Below, piece after piece: positions 58,335 to 64,000 of a DNA stretch of 64,000 nucleotides. The stretch is taken from NCBI RefSeq assembly GCF_039545795.1, contig NZ_CP154260.1, positions 2,113,001 to 2,177,000 of the forward strand, given 5' to 3'. Below the pieces are notes generated by a model. It was not told the DNA's origin and made no database searches. It saw nothing but the letters and a program-made list of their open reading frames with translations. Position numbers and translations under genes: made by a program. This DNA is from Chitinophaga niabensis (GTDB lineage: Bacteria > Bacteroidota > Bacteroidia > Chitinophagales > Chitinophagaceae). Numbering within the stretch: the stretch's first letter is position 1; every line of letters begins with the position of its first letter.

Positions 58335-58546
58335 ATTGAGATAATATTATTTACATTTTAATTGAGGGGTATAGGGCAGGAAAGCTTAGTGCTTTGCAGG
58401 ACATAGATCATTTTACAAATTCGCTGCCAGATTTACCAGCCATCCGTTATAGTAACCTCATCAACAAATTCTAAAAGTGGCTGCATCAAATTCCCTAAAT
58501 TCGTGCATCCAAATTTCGAAGAGTGATCAATCATATACAACCGGTA

Positions 58547-60136
58547 ATGTGCCAACATTACCTGCCATTTACGGAAACGGGGTTCTGCAGTCCGATCATA
58601 GCGGATTTTTTGACAGGTCGTACGCCCCTGCGCTCTTTTTATGAGTATATACAGGTGAATCCTGATTTTGATAAAGCCATGCATGTCAAATCAACGCAGC
58701 CACTGCGGAGAGATTTACTGGCAGATGCCTTATATAAACAATACCAGGGGGTAGAAATAAGGGAGGAAGTAAGGGCTAATATAGGCCTGTTGCAGGCCAC
58801 CAATACTTTTACAATCTGTACGGCTCATCAGCCGAATATATTTACAGGGTATCTCTATTTCATCTACAAGATACTACAAACTATCAAGCTTTCCCGGGAT
58901 TTAGCGGTGAAGTACCCAAAGAACCACTTTGTGCCGGTGTATTACATGGGCAGCGAGGATGCGGACCTGGACGAACTGGGCTCCATACAGCTGAATGGTA
59001 AAACCCTTACCTGGGATACGGATCAGAAGGGGGCGGTAGGCCGGATGAACACTACCGGGCTGGATGAAATGATCAAAAAGGTAGCAGATGCGGTGGGGTT
59101 TGAGCCCCATGGGCCTGCTTTGGTGGAAATGCTGGAAAAGGCTTACCTGGGGCATAAAACCATCCAGGAGGCTACTTTAAGCCTTGTTAACGATTTGTTT
59201 GGTTGTTACGGGCTGCTAGTGCTGATACCTGACAATCCGGCATTCAAGCAACAGCTGATTCCGGTGATGGAGGAAGAATTATGGCAACAGAGTTCTGCTG
59301 CTATTGTAGGCAAAACCATCGAAAAATTAGCAGAACATTATAAAGTTCAGGCGAATCCGCGGGAAATAAATCTTTTTTATCTCATTGAGGATAAACGTGA
59401 AAGGATTGTTAAAGATGGGGAATTGTGGAAGATACTACACACATCGTTGTCGTTTTCCGGGGAGCAATTGAAAGAGGAATTATACACACATCCTGAACGG
59501 TTTAGTCCGAATGTGATCCTTCGTGGGATCCTGCAGGAAACCATTCTGCCGAACATTGCTTTTATTGGCGGTGGAGGAGAAGTGGCTTACTGGCTGGAAT
59601 TAAAAGAGCTCTTCCAGCATCATAAAGTACCTTATCCTGTTATCCTGCTGCGTAACTCTTTCCTTTGGATAAAGAAGGATCTGCATGACCGTCAGCGGAA
59701 GCTGGGGATCAGCACGGAAGCCTTGTTTGAGGATACCGAGTTGCTGGTGAACCGTTTTGTGCATGAGCATACAAATGCAGCTTTAGTGTTGCGGGAAGAA
59801 TATGCGGCGGTGGAGAAGCTGTTCAATGAACTGGAAGAGAAAGCAAAGACAATTGACGTTACGTTGATTGCTACCGTGAATGCAGAGCGCACGCGTGCAT
59901 TGAAATCTATTGGTAAGCTTGAGCATAAATTCCTGCGGGCTGAGAAGAAGAAGTTTGCCTGGCAAACAGAGCAGATCCGGGCTTTGAAAGAGCGGTTGTT
60001 TCCCGGTAATTCTTTGCAGGAGCGGAAGGAGAACTTTATGCCTTATTACGCGCAATATGGGCCGGGTTGGTTTGATATGATGCTGAAGGCGGTGAAGCCG
60101 GTAACGGACCAGTTTGGGGTGATTTCGGAGGAGTAG
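58547..60136 (+). CDS. bshC: Bacillithiol biosynthesis cysteine-adding enzyme
   Basis: A 529-residue BshC. I prefer ATG 58547 because the family's first conserved block (YLPFTETGF) then starts at about residue 5; the frame is open to a GTG at 58523. Other blocks are ICTAHQPNIFTGYLYF, YYMGSEDADLDEL and AFIGGGGEVAYWLELKELF, followed by a C-terminal coiled coil (EKLFNELEEKAKTIDVTLIA). It attaches cysteine to GlcN-malate in the last step of bacillithiol synthesis, the low-molecular-weight thiol of many Bacteroidota. Confidence 0.9.
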   Translation: MCQHYLPFTETGFCSPIIADFLTGRTPLRSFYEYIQVNPDFDKAMHVKSTQPLRRDLLADALYKQYQGVEIREEVRANIGLLQATNTFTICTAHQPNIFTGYLYFIYKILQTIKLSRDLAVKYPKNHFVPVYYMGSEDADLDELGSIQLNGKTLTWDTDQKGAVGRMNTTGLDEMIKKVADAVGFEPHGPALVEMLEKAYLGHKTIQEATLSLVNDLFGCYGLLVLIPDNPAFKQQLIPVMEEELWQQSSAAIVGKTIEKLAEHYKVQANPREINLFYLIEDKRERIVKDGELWKILHTSLSFSGEQLKEELYTHPERFSPNVILRGILQETILPNIAFIGGGGEVAYWLELKELFQHHKVPYPVILLRNSFLWIKKDLHDRQRKLGISTEALFEDTELLVNRFVHEHTNAALVLREEYAAVEKLFNELEEKAKTIDVTLIATVNAERTRALKSIGKLEHKFLRAEKKKFAWQTEQIRALKERLFPGNSLQERKENFMPYYAQYGPGWFDMMLKAVKPVTDQFGVISEE

Positions 60137-60187: not shown

Positions 60188-60347
60188 ACCAGCGTACTTT
60201 TATTTGATTAGAAGTTGTGTTTGCTGCACTGTAAAGGGTGTTTTTCTTTACCAGGGGGCTTTTTTATTTGATTAGACGTTTGCTGCACTGTAAAGGGTGT
60301 TTTTCTTTACCAGAGGGCTTTTTTATTTGATTAGACCTTTGCTGCAC
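60188..60347 (+). repeat. 59-bp tandem repeat, two full copies plus partial flanking copies
   Basis: tttgctgcactgtaaagggt starts full copies at 60220 and 60279, and tttgctgcac begins again at 60338, so the period is exactly 59 bp. A degraded partial copy covers 60188-60219 (accagcgtacttttatttgatt). Each unit contains an imperfect inverted repeat (ctgtaaag/ctttaccag) and a T-rich run after ggggc or agggc. The two full copies differ by about one substitution plus the terminal bases, so the duplication is recent. Confidence 0.88.
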
Positions 60348-60604: not shown

Positions 60605-62844
60605 TCAGCCTTCAACAATCACAGCCCCGTGTACCGCAGCCTTCTTCATATCCTTTAGCACCGTGAACAACGCCTGGAACTGATCCCGCACATGTTTGAT
60701 CTCCAGCATTTCTTCCCTTTCAACAGTATGCCCCTGACCATCATTGATCTGCTGCTGCCTCAGATGCAACAGTTCTTCCAGTCTTTCTTCGAGGCGGTGG
60801 AATGCCGTTGGAGTTTCCGGGTCAGGTATAATAGCACCCACTGATACATACTGCTCTATCTGGTCCATAATGGTAAGAAGGAACAACAGGATATCCTTGT
60901 ATTCCGGCCGCTTATACTTCAAATGATGTTGCAGTGCATAAGCAGATAACTGCGCTATATGCGATGATAATGAATGACTTAGTACTACAAAATGATAGAG
61001 CTCCGAGCCGTGTTTCTGTTTGCTCTTTGGCTCGGATAACATCCGCTGAAAAGCGGCAGTAAGGTTCGCAATGCTTACATGTACATCCTTGCGGGCCAGT
61101 TTATAGGCGATTAAGCTGAAGGGTTTATCCGTGTACAGGTTAGTGACCTGTTGGAGGTATTGTTTGTTGGCGGTGATGGCTTTGACCATGTAATCCGGCA
61201 GGAACTTGTATTCCCAGCTGGGCCAGAAGATGTAATTGAAAATAAAGGCTATTGTACCACCGATCACCGTATCTATCACCCTGTTGGTGAGGTTGTTGAA
61301 ATCCGCCGGATGGAGGAAGTGTAACAGGAAGATGATAAAGGGTGTCATAAACACCACGCTGGTGATATAGTGATAGGTCTGGAAGCTGTAAGCTCCCAGG
61401 ATGCAAACCAGCATCACACAGAAGATAACCGTATCGTCTTTTGTAAGATAGAGGATCCCCGCTGCAAAGAAAGCCCCGATCAGCGTACCGATGATCCGCT
61501 GGAAACTCCGGGTTTTAGTAAGACTGAAACCGGGTTTCATGATCACCATAATAGTGAGCAGGATCCAGTAGGTTCTGCTGAGCTGCAGCGCCTGGCCCAA
61601 CAGCAGACCGGATACCATGGCTATTCCCGTTCTAACCGCATGCCGGAAGATGTGGGAGTTAAAGGTGAGGTTGTTGCGGAATGTAGTAACATCGTACGAC
61701 TGGCGGGTAGTGAATTTGGAAAGCTCAAGCTGATGATCGAAACTCGCTTCCTTCACTCTTTCCAGCCTGGTGAGGCGGTGCATGTTATACATCCGCTGGG
61801 TGATATGCTGCAGGTTGTCGAAGATGCTTTCGAAAGGGATCAGGTCTGCCCGTTCTTTGAGGGAAGGCAGGCTGGCCTGGTAGTTCTTGAATTCCTTGCG
61901 CGCCTTCTCTAATTCTAATTTCAAATTTACTTTAGGCATAGAGCGAAAACCCACTGATACTGCGATGCCTATGTTGTCTAGTTCTTCTGAGAATTGTATG
62001 ATCGTTTCATGCAATTGTGCAATCACTTTGGTGCCGGCAAAGCGTTTTTGCAGGGAGGTATAATCGATCTGGGAGGCCATGATCTGTTCCTGCATATCCA
62101 CCAGGTCCAGGAAAATGAGCACCATGCTTTTGCTGATACTTGTAGTACCCTGTTGTGCGGAACGCATTTTAAGCAGGAGCTCGCGCACGGCTTCCTGTTT
62201 TTCATTCACGATCACCTGCTGGGCAAATACATCTTTATAAGTTTCGGTGATATCGAGATCCGGTTCGTAGAAATTAGCCCTTTGGCGGAGGTATTTTGCG
62301 GTTGACTGGATGCAATCACCTAAAGTCTGCTGCACGGTCAGGTAGGGCCTGATCTGCCAGAATAATAGTGCAAGCAGGGCATACCATATACTGCCACTGA
62401 GGGTAAGGAAGGAAATCTGCACTGCCATTTGCCAGGTGGTGTACTGCTCTGCCATGATGCTCACCATCACCAGCATACCTCCGATGCCTATGTTTCCACC
62501 CCGGTTGCCATAGATCAGCAGCATGGAGCAAAAGAAACTGCAAAGCCCCACCCAGATGGTCAACAGCGCCATGTGAGGTAGCAGCAGGCCTGTTCCTAAA
62601 GCCAGCAGGAAGATCAGGATGGTGCTGATGATCAATCCGTTCCGTTTGTGGATAATAGTGCCGGGAACATCCGCAAGGGCTGTACATAAAGCGCCCATAG
62701 ATATTGCTATCCCGGTGCTGAGTTGCCCGATAGCGGCAAAAATAACAGAGGGCACAACAACGCTCAGGGTAGTACGAAGTCCGTTGCTGAAATGGTAACT
62801 GAAAATAAAGGCTTTTGCTTCTTTGAGCCAACGTTCTTGCATCG
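60605..62844 (-). CDS. FUSC-family (YccS/YhfK-like) inner-membrane protein
   Basis: A 746-residue protein with two blocks of about six membrane helices each (about residues 25-170 and 400-525 from the chosen start), separated by a cytosolic helical region and followed by a C-terminal cytosolic domain. The family signature is visible twice: GLRTTLSVVVPSVIFAAIGQ, then RTGIAMVSGLLLGQALQLSR with YWILLTIMVIMKPGFSLTKT and QRIIGTLIGAFFAAG. FUSC proteins are thought to transport aromatic or lipid-like compounds. The start at ATG 62844 is favoured over the in-frame GTG 62893, which lies against the GGCC array. It is divergent from smc. Confidence 0.85.
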
Positions 62845-62885
62845 TGTGCAAAATTACAATATATGAACCAGAGATTTTTTCCTTG

Positions 62886-63095
62886 TTATCCACGGCCTCG
62901 TACTGGCCTTGTTACGGCCTTGTAATGGCCTTTTACGGCCTCGTGACGGCCTTGATCGGCCTTGAACCGGCCTTTATCGGCCTTATCCCGGCCTTTACCC
63001 ATACTTCTGGTAATAAATGAGATAAGTTCAATATTTATCTCACTATCAATTATTTATAGCCAGATTGTGAAAAAATTATCCCCAACTGTGAATAA
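62886..63095. promoter_or_regulatory. DnaA-box-like motifs and AT-rich region
   Basis: ttatccacg (62886-62894) and ttatcccca (63076-63084) each differ from the DnaA box TTATCCACA by one base; tgtgaataa (63087-63095) is an exact TTATNCACA on the minus strand. An AT-rich stretch and an 8-bp inverted repeat tgagataa/ttatctca (63018-63042) lie between. This may be a cluster of DnaA sites near smc; dnaA is not in the window. Confidence 0.35.
62894..62993. repeat. Ten-copy helically phased GGCC(TT) array
   Basis: GGCC occurs at 62894, 62905, 62916, 62927, 62937, 62948, 62958, 62969, 62979 and 62990. Spacings are 11, 11, 11, 10, 11, 10, 11, 10, 11 (mean 10.7), close to one helical turn. Most copies read cggcct with a variable 3-4-bp filler. 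It lies between the divergent FUSC and smc genes, ~50 bp upstream of the FUSC ATG. No protein or known element explains it. Confidence 0.92.
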
Positions 63096-63140
63096 GTAAA
63101 TACAAAATATTATACGTTCTCCGGTAACTTACCAAATGAT

Positions 63141-63220
63141 TCAGCATCATTGAATTTTACGTGTGAGTGTGACCATATCTGCGTACCGCTATCCCGAAGC
63201 GGCAAGCCCCATGATGCTGA
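63141..63220 (+). other. Possible structured RNA or cruciform upstream of smc
   Basis: tcagcatcat (63141-63150) and atgatgctga (63211-63220) are perfect 10-bp complements. Inside them ccgct/agcgg (63186-63190 and 63197-63201 approximately) forms a second hairpin around atcccga. It lies upstream of the smc -7 box, so it would not be part of the smc leader unless transcription starts earlier. Confidence 0.45.
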
Positions 63221-63237
63221 TATCAACTTAATTCAAT

Positions 63238-63264
63238 TATCTTTGGCGGCTCATAAAAAGGAGG
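63238..63264 (+). promoter_or_regulatory. smc -7 element and strong Shine-Dalgarno
   Basis: TATCTTTG (63238-63245) matches TAnnTTTG. aaggaggtg (63258-63266) is a near-complete anti-16S match immediately before GTG 63269, unusual for Bacteroidota, and it fixes the start. Confidence 0.65.
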
Positions 63265-63268
63265 TGTT

Positions 63269-64000
63269 GTGCGTTTAAAAACACTAGAGATCAAAGGGTT
63301 TAAAAGTTTTGCGGACAAAACGGTGTTACACTTCGATGAAGGTGTAACAGGCGTTATTGGCCCTAACGGTTGCGGCAAGAGTAATATCATCGACTCTATC
63401 CGCTGGGTGATCGGAGAACATAAGATCAGTAACCTGCGTTCAGATAACCAGGCTGGCCTCGTGTTCAATGGTTCCCGTACCCGTTCCGCCAGTGGTATGG
63501 CGGAAGTAAGCCTTACGTTCGAGAACAATAAGAACGTATTGCCTACGGAATTCACCACGGTGACTGTTACCCGTAAGTTCTATAAGAATGGCGACAGCGA
63601 ATATCGTTTGAACGATGTGGTCTGCCGCCTCAAGGATATCCATAACCTCTTTATGGATACAGGGGTGAGTACAGACTCCTACGCCATCATCGAGTTAGGG
63701 ATGGTGGACGATATCATCAAGGATAAGGAGAACAGCCGCCGCCGGATGCTGGAACAGGCCGCCGGTATTTCCATCTACAAAACCCGGAAAAAGGAAGCCA
63801 AATCCAAACTGGACGCCACAGAAGGTGACCTGAACAGGATCGAGGACCTTCTTTTCGAGATCAATAACAACCTCAAGACATTGGAGAGCCAGGCCCGCAA
63901 AGCGGAACGGTTCTACGAGATCAAAAAGGAATATAAAGAGGCCAGCATTGAGCTGGCCAAAGCTTCCCTGGAAGGTTTCAACAACACCTTTAAAGACCTC
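63269..64000 (+). CDS. smc: Chromosome segregation protein SMC (3' truncated by window end)
   Basis: The first 244 codons of SMC are seen, open to the last base. A GTG start follows a strong Shine-Dalgarno. The N-terminal half of the ATPase head is clear: LKTLEIKGFKSFADKTVLHF, Walker A GPNGCGKSN (~31-39), SIRWVIGEHKISNLRS, then LFMDTGVSTDSYAIIELGMV and QAAGISIYKTRKKEAKSKL, leading into the coiled coil. With ScpA and ScpB it forms the condensin that organises and separates chromosomes. The rest of the gene lies beyond the window. Confidence 0.96.
   Translation, partial: MRLKTLEIKGFKSFADKTVLHFDEGVTGVIGPNGCGKSNIIDSIRWVIGEHKISNLRSDNQAGLVFNGSRTRSASGMAEVSLTFENNKNVLPTEFTTVTVTRKFYKNGDSEYRLNDVVCRLKDIHNLFMDTGVSTDSYAIIELGMVDDIIKDKENSRRRMLEQAAGISIYKTRKKEAKSKLDATEGDLNRIEDLLFEINNNLKTLESQARKAERFYEIKKEYKEASIELAKASLEGFNNTFKDL

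Follow-up and report, generated by a model that had tools for sequence, protein, structure and literature searches.

A helix-phased GCCTY array between a FUSC-like gene and smc in Chitinophaga niabensis, probably one copy of a small dispersed repeat

The array in the gap between the FUSC-like gene and smc

The window, by which we mean the whole analysed 64-kb stretch of Chitinophaga niabensis DNA, ends in a divergent gene pair, and the gap between these genes carries an array of short phased repeats. The features of this region are as follows (window positions).

60605–62842, minus strand: FUSC-like membrane protein gene (Pfam FUSC-like, E 2e-41), with the ATG at 62842 as its likeliest start
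62841–62893, no strand: left flank, from the FUSC start codon to the first GGCC, differing from the sister species (G028) at 1 of 53 bases
62892–63000, plus strand: family A array, 10 units of GGCCTY plus a 4–5 bp spacer, 10–11 bp each, with homologous arrays at 7 further places in the genome
63001–63268, no strand: remainder of the smc upstream region, devoid of array units
63269–64000, plus strand: 5′ part of smc (SMC_N), which continues past the window end; 39 of 40 Chitinophaga genomes, counting the own, have a match to its N-terminus

The array thus begins about 50 bp from the likely FUSC ATG and ends about 270 bp before smc (63269). An alternative GTG start at 62893, listed by the ORF tool for the FUSC-like gene, would touch the array edge.

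Ten GGCC sites start at positions 62894, 62905, 62916, 62927, 62937, 62948, 62958, 62969, 62979, and 62990, with spacings of 11, 11, 11, 10, 11, 10, 11, 10, and 11 bp (array 62894–62993). The window has 275 GGCC sites in total, fewer than its dinucleotide shuffles (mean 315), and ten of these fall within the 100 bp of the array. Elsewhere the maximum per 100 bp is 5, and when 275 sites were placed at random, none of 300 trials exceeded 6. The phase coherence R of the array sites is 0.98 at 10.6 bp, the highest among the periods tried (0.96 at 10.5, 0.79 at 11.0, and 0.50 at 10.0 bp), which places all ten GGCC on one face of B-DNA. An earlier note on this DNA, made from the sequence alone, had described ten sites phased in this way and all facing the same side of the helix; both statements are confirmed, the clustering being far beyond chance. 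The repeat unit proved to be longer than GGCC, consisting of the core GGCCTY and a variable spacer of 4–5 bp.

The same note had held that neither coding sequence nor CRISPR explains the array, and we agree on both counts. A frame of 65 codons is open on the plus strand through the array (62823–63020, TTG start); a coding repeat was nevertheless dropped, because units of 10 and 11 bp do not hold one frame. CRISPR repeats have about 23–50 bp and spacers of similar length. A CRISPR array was thus ruled out, the core having 5–6 bp and the spacer 4–6 bp. Rfam 15 returned no match up to E 1 for window positions 62500–63400. The phage and plasmid collections gave no match at E<=1e-5, though these may omit close relatives of the own genome.

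Other sequence features were seen in the window. Upstream of smc, at 63076–63095, an inverted pair of 9-mers (TTATCCCCA-AC-TGTGAATAA) resembles DnaA boxes. Allowing up to 2 mismatches to TTATNCACANNTGTGNATAA, such a pair is present in 24 of the 30 Chitinophaga loci, counting the own one, and in none of 600 shuffled 600-bp stretches. A further DnaA-box-like sequence, TTATCCACG, abuts the first array unit (62886–62894) and is found alike in the own species and in G028. Two longer tandem repeats occur at 1748–2105 (116 bp, 3.1 copies, with inner 49-bp repeats) and at 60219–60347 (59 bp, 2.2 copies, 97% match), the latter between the ORF 58523–60136 and the FUSC-like gene.

Dispersed copies in the own genome and in related species

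The genome was searched with a pattern of three GGCCT units at 9–11 bp, the reversed pattern serving as control. There were 56 matches (45 forward and 11 reverse) versus 7 for the control; with GCCTY as the unit, 79 matches were obtained versus 0. Arrays homologous to that of the window, here called family A, occupy eight intergenic places in the 7.2-Mb genome of C. niabensis (G000), at 629, 1382, 1608, 2176 (window), 2715, 3138, 3323, and 5178 kb. The element has about ten GCCTY cores, one helical turn apart, and measures about 70–130 bp, or about 340 bp at one expanded site. The copies have the order of many units in common, which by eye reads for example TTTTAC, TTGTATT or TTGTTAC, TTGTAAT, .., TCGTGAC, TTGATC, TTGTAAC; several also have a common tail of the type TGATTCC-CAATT-TAC (again by eye). 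At L036, the array is enlarged by about 5 copies of a 53-bp block, a length of five turns of 10.6 bp.

Seven of the eight arrays immediately follow the 3′ end of an ORF; the window copy is the only one between divergent starts. Three of the seven are between convergent ORFs (L032, where the left ORF has just 110 codons, L035, and L037) and four between the 3′ end of one ORF and the start of the next (L031, L033, L034, and L036). From the GC skew of 20 samples, the replication origin is predicted at about 6.2 Mb and the terminus at about 2.8 Mb. Six of the eight arrays have one common orientation with respect to the fork, and a replication strand bias is not claimed on so few copies.

Chitinophaga sp. 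SYP-B3965 (G028), the sister species, carries 7 family A arrays. Comparison of the flanks of the 8 own and these 7 arrays yielded a single orthologous pair, the window locus (5405 bp at 88%); for all other pairs, homology covers the array alone. Over the 15 arrays of both species, spacings of 10 bp (n = 49) and 11 bp (n = 102) are mixed, and the coherence at the best period is 0.97–0.99 in every one of them.

At the window locus, the G028 array has nine cores, 4 GGCC and 5 AGCC, spaced 11, 11, 10, 11, 11, 11, 11, and 10 bp. As five of these nine cores are AGCC, the conserved feature is the phased GCCTY at about 10.6 bp and not the palindrome GGCC, which weakens the proposal of the earlier note that GGCC methylation could exert control here. 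The idea of GGCC as a restriction or methylation site was dropped for these AGCC cores. In the nine units common to both species, 0 of 36 core positions are changed versus 22 of 59 spacer positions; the former figure is partly circular, since units are defined by their core and the tenth unit, its core lost in G028, was left out. Fast spacers beside a quiet left flank (1 difference in 53) indicate that the array turns over in place and does not change by transposition only.

From the 39 genomes with a match to the smc N-terminus, 30 loci were fetched, among them the own. In the 1000 bp preceding smc, GCCT cores spaced 9–12 bp apart form a chain of 10 in G000 and of 9 in G028. None of the other 28 loci exceeds 2, so that the array (a chain of more than 2 cores) is absent from this gap in all 28. 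Two of the seven non-shared own sites were compared with G028. At L035, 168 bp lie between the matched flanks in G000 versus 17 bp in G028, with the terminator kept. At L036, a gap between a bshB1-like and a histidine-kinase-like gene (names from reading the sequence, not from a family search), G000 has the GCCTY array and G028 a different 11-bp array, five units of the GTGGACTTGGT type.

At least 2 short arrays of the GCCTY kind also occur in a third species, Chitinophaga chungangae (L203 and L277). Across the genus, the GCCTY search was clear in only three genomes (G000, G028, and G010); the reversed control exceeded the matches in G003 (19 vs. 6) and G033 (36 vs. 19) and was nearly equal to them in G035 (11 vs. 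14).

The earlier note had suggested that the array could act at the divergent FUSC/smc promoter, and the genome search did not support this. That search returned eight scattered intergenic arrays, seven of them 3′ of an ORF (as judged from ORFs, not from mapped promoters); the note had itself named scattered arrays unconnected with promoters as refuting. Its statement that no known repeat class applies holds insofar as no described family of the same build and no Rfam match was found; the array does belong to a dispersed repeat family.

A cis-acting site of FUSC and smc, operating by cooperative binding or by bending at a divergent promoter, could account for the short distance (about 50 bp) to the FUSC start codon, for retention at the site in the sister, and for the phasing on one face. 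It would leave the seven other copies at ORF 3′ ends and the 28 array-free congener gaps without explanation. Curvature bears on it in both directions: an ad hoc roll model puts 10 tested family A arrays at the 84th–100th percentile of intergenic DNA, whereas a wedge model from print puts nine of the ten at the 46th–98th and the tenth at the 23rd percentile, which is not outstanding. With two dinucleotide models in disagreement, their parameters being in part ad hoc, a claim of outstanding curvature was dropped. We regard the cis-acting site as highly improbable. Cooperative protein binding on one face of the array is possible, and a regulatory reading of the window copy is likewise possible, though the copy can be explained without it.

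Unrelated families with units of 11 bp

Several, though not all, of the sampled Chitinophaga genomes carry dispersed intergenic families of unrelated sequence with units of 11 bp (10–11 bp). In the own genome, the units are GCCTY (family A), TTCATCCTWGC (family B, 18 loci), CCTATAGCATT (family C, 8 loci), and CAATCCCGTAT. Units in G003 include GACGTAGGTTA, GGTGTAGACCC, AAAAGCATATC, and others, and in G010 units similar to GCCTTTGACAT gave 27 matches versus 0 in the control. Of 40 genomes searched, G000, G028, and, with a variant, G022 gave matches to family B, and the remaining 37 gave none. One of its copies shows a clean presence/absence difference between G000 and G028 (138 bp vs. 6 bp).

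In the window and 20 spread stretches of the own genome, together 464 kb, Tandem Repeats Finder reported 10 rows of period 11, 4 of period 22, and 6 of period 12. In 400-kb regions, of which only about 7% lie outside the ORF mask, 7 intergenic rows of period 11 were found in the own genome and 4 in collinear G028, with at most 2 for any other period up to 20. The own region was chosen to span L035 and L036, so that 2 of its 7 rows are there by choice, and 2 more represent one family B element; the rows are not independent arrays. Coding rows in these regions peak at period 12, in G028 at 12 and 15. In non-coding DNA, the lag spectrum peaks at 11, 22, and 33 in G003 (14, 9, and 5) and at 11 and 22 in G028 (4 and 3). 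In G000, only two at lag 11 pass the strict threshold, and a clear peak is missing; the other congeners, when pooled, have 2 at lag 11 and 5 at lag 39, and none at lag 11 was seen in 29 kb of DNA of other families in the order.

Rows of period 11 numbered 3 in G008 and 2 in G028 (60 kb each) and 1 in 260 kb from other families of the order. None occurred in G001, G007, G032, and G040 (60 kb each) or in G021, G037, and G043 (40 kb each), and these seven congeners show that the trait is not shared by the whole genus. The count of 27 for G003 is inflated, as 7 of its 16 stretches were picked at pattern matches. This genome has a perfect 11-bp array of 12.3 copies.

Two further arrangements were observed. 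A composite element of about 400 bp in G003 joins arrays of GGTGTAGACCC and AAAAGCATATC and occurs twice in opposite orientation (L085:9740–10160 and L075:8540–8900); in L085, one of its two 11-bp arrays is perfect over 12 copies. Seven of the eight family C copies lie in the 5.30–7.19 Mb section of the chromosome (G000:C1; L371–L374, L072, L073, and 7004850), around the GC-skew origin, and the best match of these seven origin-side copies is always on the plus strand.

In a wider scan, tandem repeats of about 11 bp with a GGCCTY core were found in many unrelated genomes, in at least 119 stretches, the pattern itself demanding about 11 bp. A frame of at least 150 codons is open through 92 of the 119 listed matches, which in GC-rich genomes need not mean coding. 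Apart from those of Chitinophaga, which the scan also listed, these stretches are presumably unrelated to family A; the own genome may be absent from the scan. Two Paraburkholderia contigs (L214 and L179) carry 11-bp arrays of GGCCTTTAGCT/G-type. No frame is open through the whole array in L214, though its four-unit match has a longer one, and L179 has a frame of 29 codons only. They are possibly an independent case.

Neutral minisatellites, that is, 11-bp units which slippage generates and expands, favouring one helical turn, with copies moved by ordinary rearrangement, would be compatible with such tandems in unrelated genomes, as well as with the many unrelated unit sequences, the perfect array of G003, and the higher-order 53-bp unit repeated about five times at L036. 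They would hardly produce the unit order common to eight dispersed copies, spacers that differ while cores stay, clean insertion differences between G000 and G028, or a coherence of 0.97–0.99 kept in 15 arrays with mixed 10- and 11-bp spacing. Family A also differs from a simple minisatellite (near-identical units at a single locus) in its variable spacers, mixed spacing, and eight loci; only L036 has an added 53-bp tandem. We thus consider a neutral origin unlikely.

Folding was assessed for some of the loci. Of the loci read (7 of 8 for family C, all 18 for family B), two of each family were folded, and these four form long hairpins (z −5.4 to −10.1 against mononucleotide shuffles) with arms that in turn consist of 11-bp repeats. 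Family A folds modestly, with z −1.4 to −4.4 for 7 own copies and +0.8 to −5.4 for 6 copies of G028 (both strands, mononucleotide shuffles); the window array has z −2.6 against dinucleotide shuffles. Rfam gave 23 matches up to E 0.1 for 12 family B and C loci, all below the gathering score.

The copies are enriched beside terminator-like sites. A facing terminator-like T-run lies within 30 bp of 24 of the 40 scored copies of families A, B, and C versus 1276 of 8000 random intergenic points (16%). The control points are random intergenic ones and not gene 3′ ends, copies within a family lack independence, and the element edges were placed manually; copies (from a listing) and points were counted with slightly different scripts. 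The detector is a loose one: when 60 bp and any orientation are allowed, it responds at 28 of 40 copies versus 395 of 800 random points. The other 16 of the 40 copies are without a facing T-run within 30 bp, among them the window copy, which has no terminator in its vicinity.

It was considered whether the arrays act as RNA, being transcribed into long hairpins which stabilise 3′ ends or backstop termination. The strong folds of the four family B and C loci, the window array exceeding its dinucleotide shuffles, and the position of several family A arrays directly after a stop codon are in line with this. The modest folding of family A is not, and on the forward strand it is lost in 2 of the 6 folded G028 copies (z +0.8 and +0.4), as would follow if AGCC cores are unable to form pairs among themselves; the window copy, moreover, sits in a divergent gap. 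An RNA element is, in our view, very unlikely.

Origin of the element and known repeat systems

We consider it fairly likely that the window array is one copy of a small dispersed repeat, which belongs among several unrelated helix-pitched families, and that it is presumably a non-autonomous mobile element with protein-read cores and probably a passenger between FUSC and smc. The element would spread as a non-autonomous mobile repeat into the 3′ flanks of genes, and a putative protein might contact its phased cores on one face of the DNA for spread or maintenance. The copy at FUSC–smc, which is found at the same site in both genomes, would have entered before the own species and its sister split, and it is probably a passenger.

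The candidate searched for as mobility enzyme was the RAYT transposase (Y1_Tnp, PF01797). It had 0 matches in G000 at E<=0.001, while the same search was positive in 5 of 14 control genomes, and mobilisation by RAYT was rejected for this reason; a mobility enzyme was not identified. Neither a target-site duplication nor terminal repeats were seen at two filled/empty pairs (one of family A, one of family B), the flanks of which are diverged. No family of such build, in Chitinophaga or elsewhere, was met in the literature, with subscription journals and preprint servers largely outside the search.

Alternatively, certain intergenic sites might need a helically phased array of whatever sequence, so that unrelated 11-bp families swap there and provide pitch-selected docking or curvature stations for a protein which reads spacing more than sequence. 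One case of such a swap was encountered, at L036; at L035, the other site compared, the sister is simply without an array. We regard this alternative as quite doubtful.

It is usually a palindrome and a transposase that define dispersed repeats in bacteria. Here, several unrelated families of one genus have only their unit length in common, about one turn of the helix. If confirmed, this would point to a mechanism of mobility or DNA packing that reads helical phase, and Chitinophaga, a genus not known as pathogenic, would offer a testable system for it.

BOX, RUP, and ERIC are bacterial MITEs and small interspersed repeats. Family A resembles these in being presumably non-autonomous, about 100 bp in length, and dispersed, and it differs by its internal helical phasing; terminal inverted repeats or target duplications, sought in diverged flanks, were not found.

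Group IIC introns have a preference for terminators. They insert beside DNA stem-loops (PMC10190682). The likeness concerns the target-site habit only, as some copies lie next to a stem-loop, and Rfam found no intron at window positions 62500–63400 or at the 12 family B and C loci.

REP elements (with BIMEs and REPINs) are defined by palindromes of 20–40 bp tagged with GTAG or CGTC and by RAYTs (PMC3733652). The Chitinophaga repeats are likewise small, dispersed, and intergenic, occur at gene 3′ ends in multiple copies that differ between sister species, and form hairpins in families B and C. In contrast to REP elements, the genome is devoid of a RAYT/Y1_Tnp gene, and the 15 family A arrays that were read have about ten phased GCCTY units of 10–11 bp instead of a GTAG- or CGTC-tagged palindrome.

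Hosid, Trifonov and Bolshoy (2004, PMC516772) described an 11-bp periodicity for the intergenic DNA of Escherichia coli, a statistical signal to which AA/TT dinucleotides are the main contributors. It agrees with our observations in a period near one helical turn and in a concentration between genes, whereas Chitinophaga has discrete repeat arrays with conserved cores.
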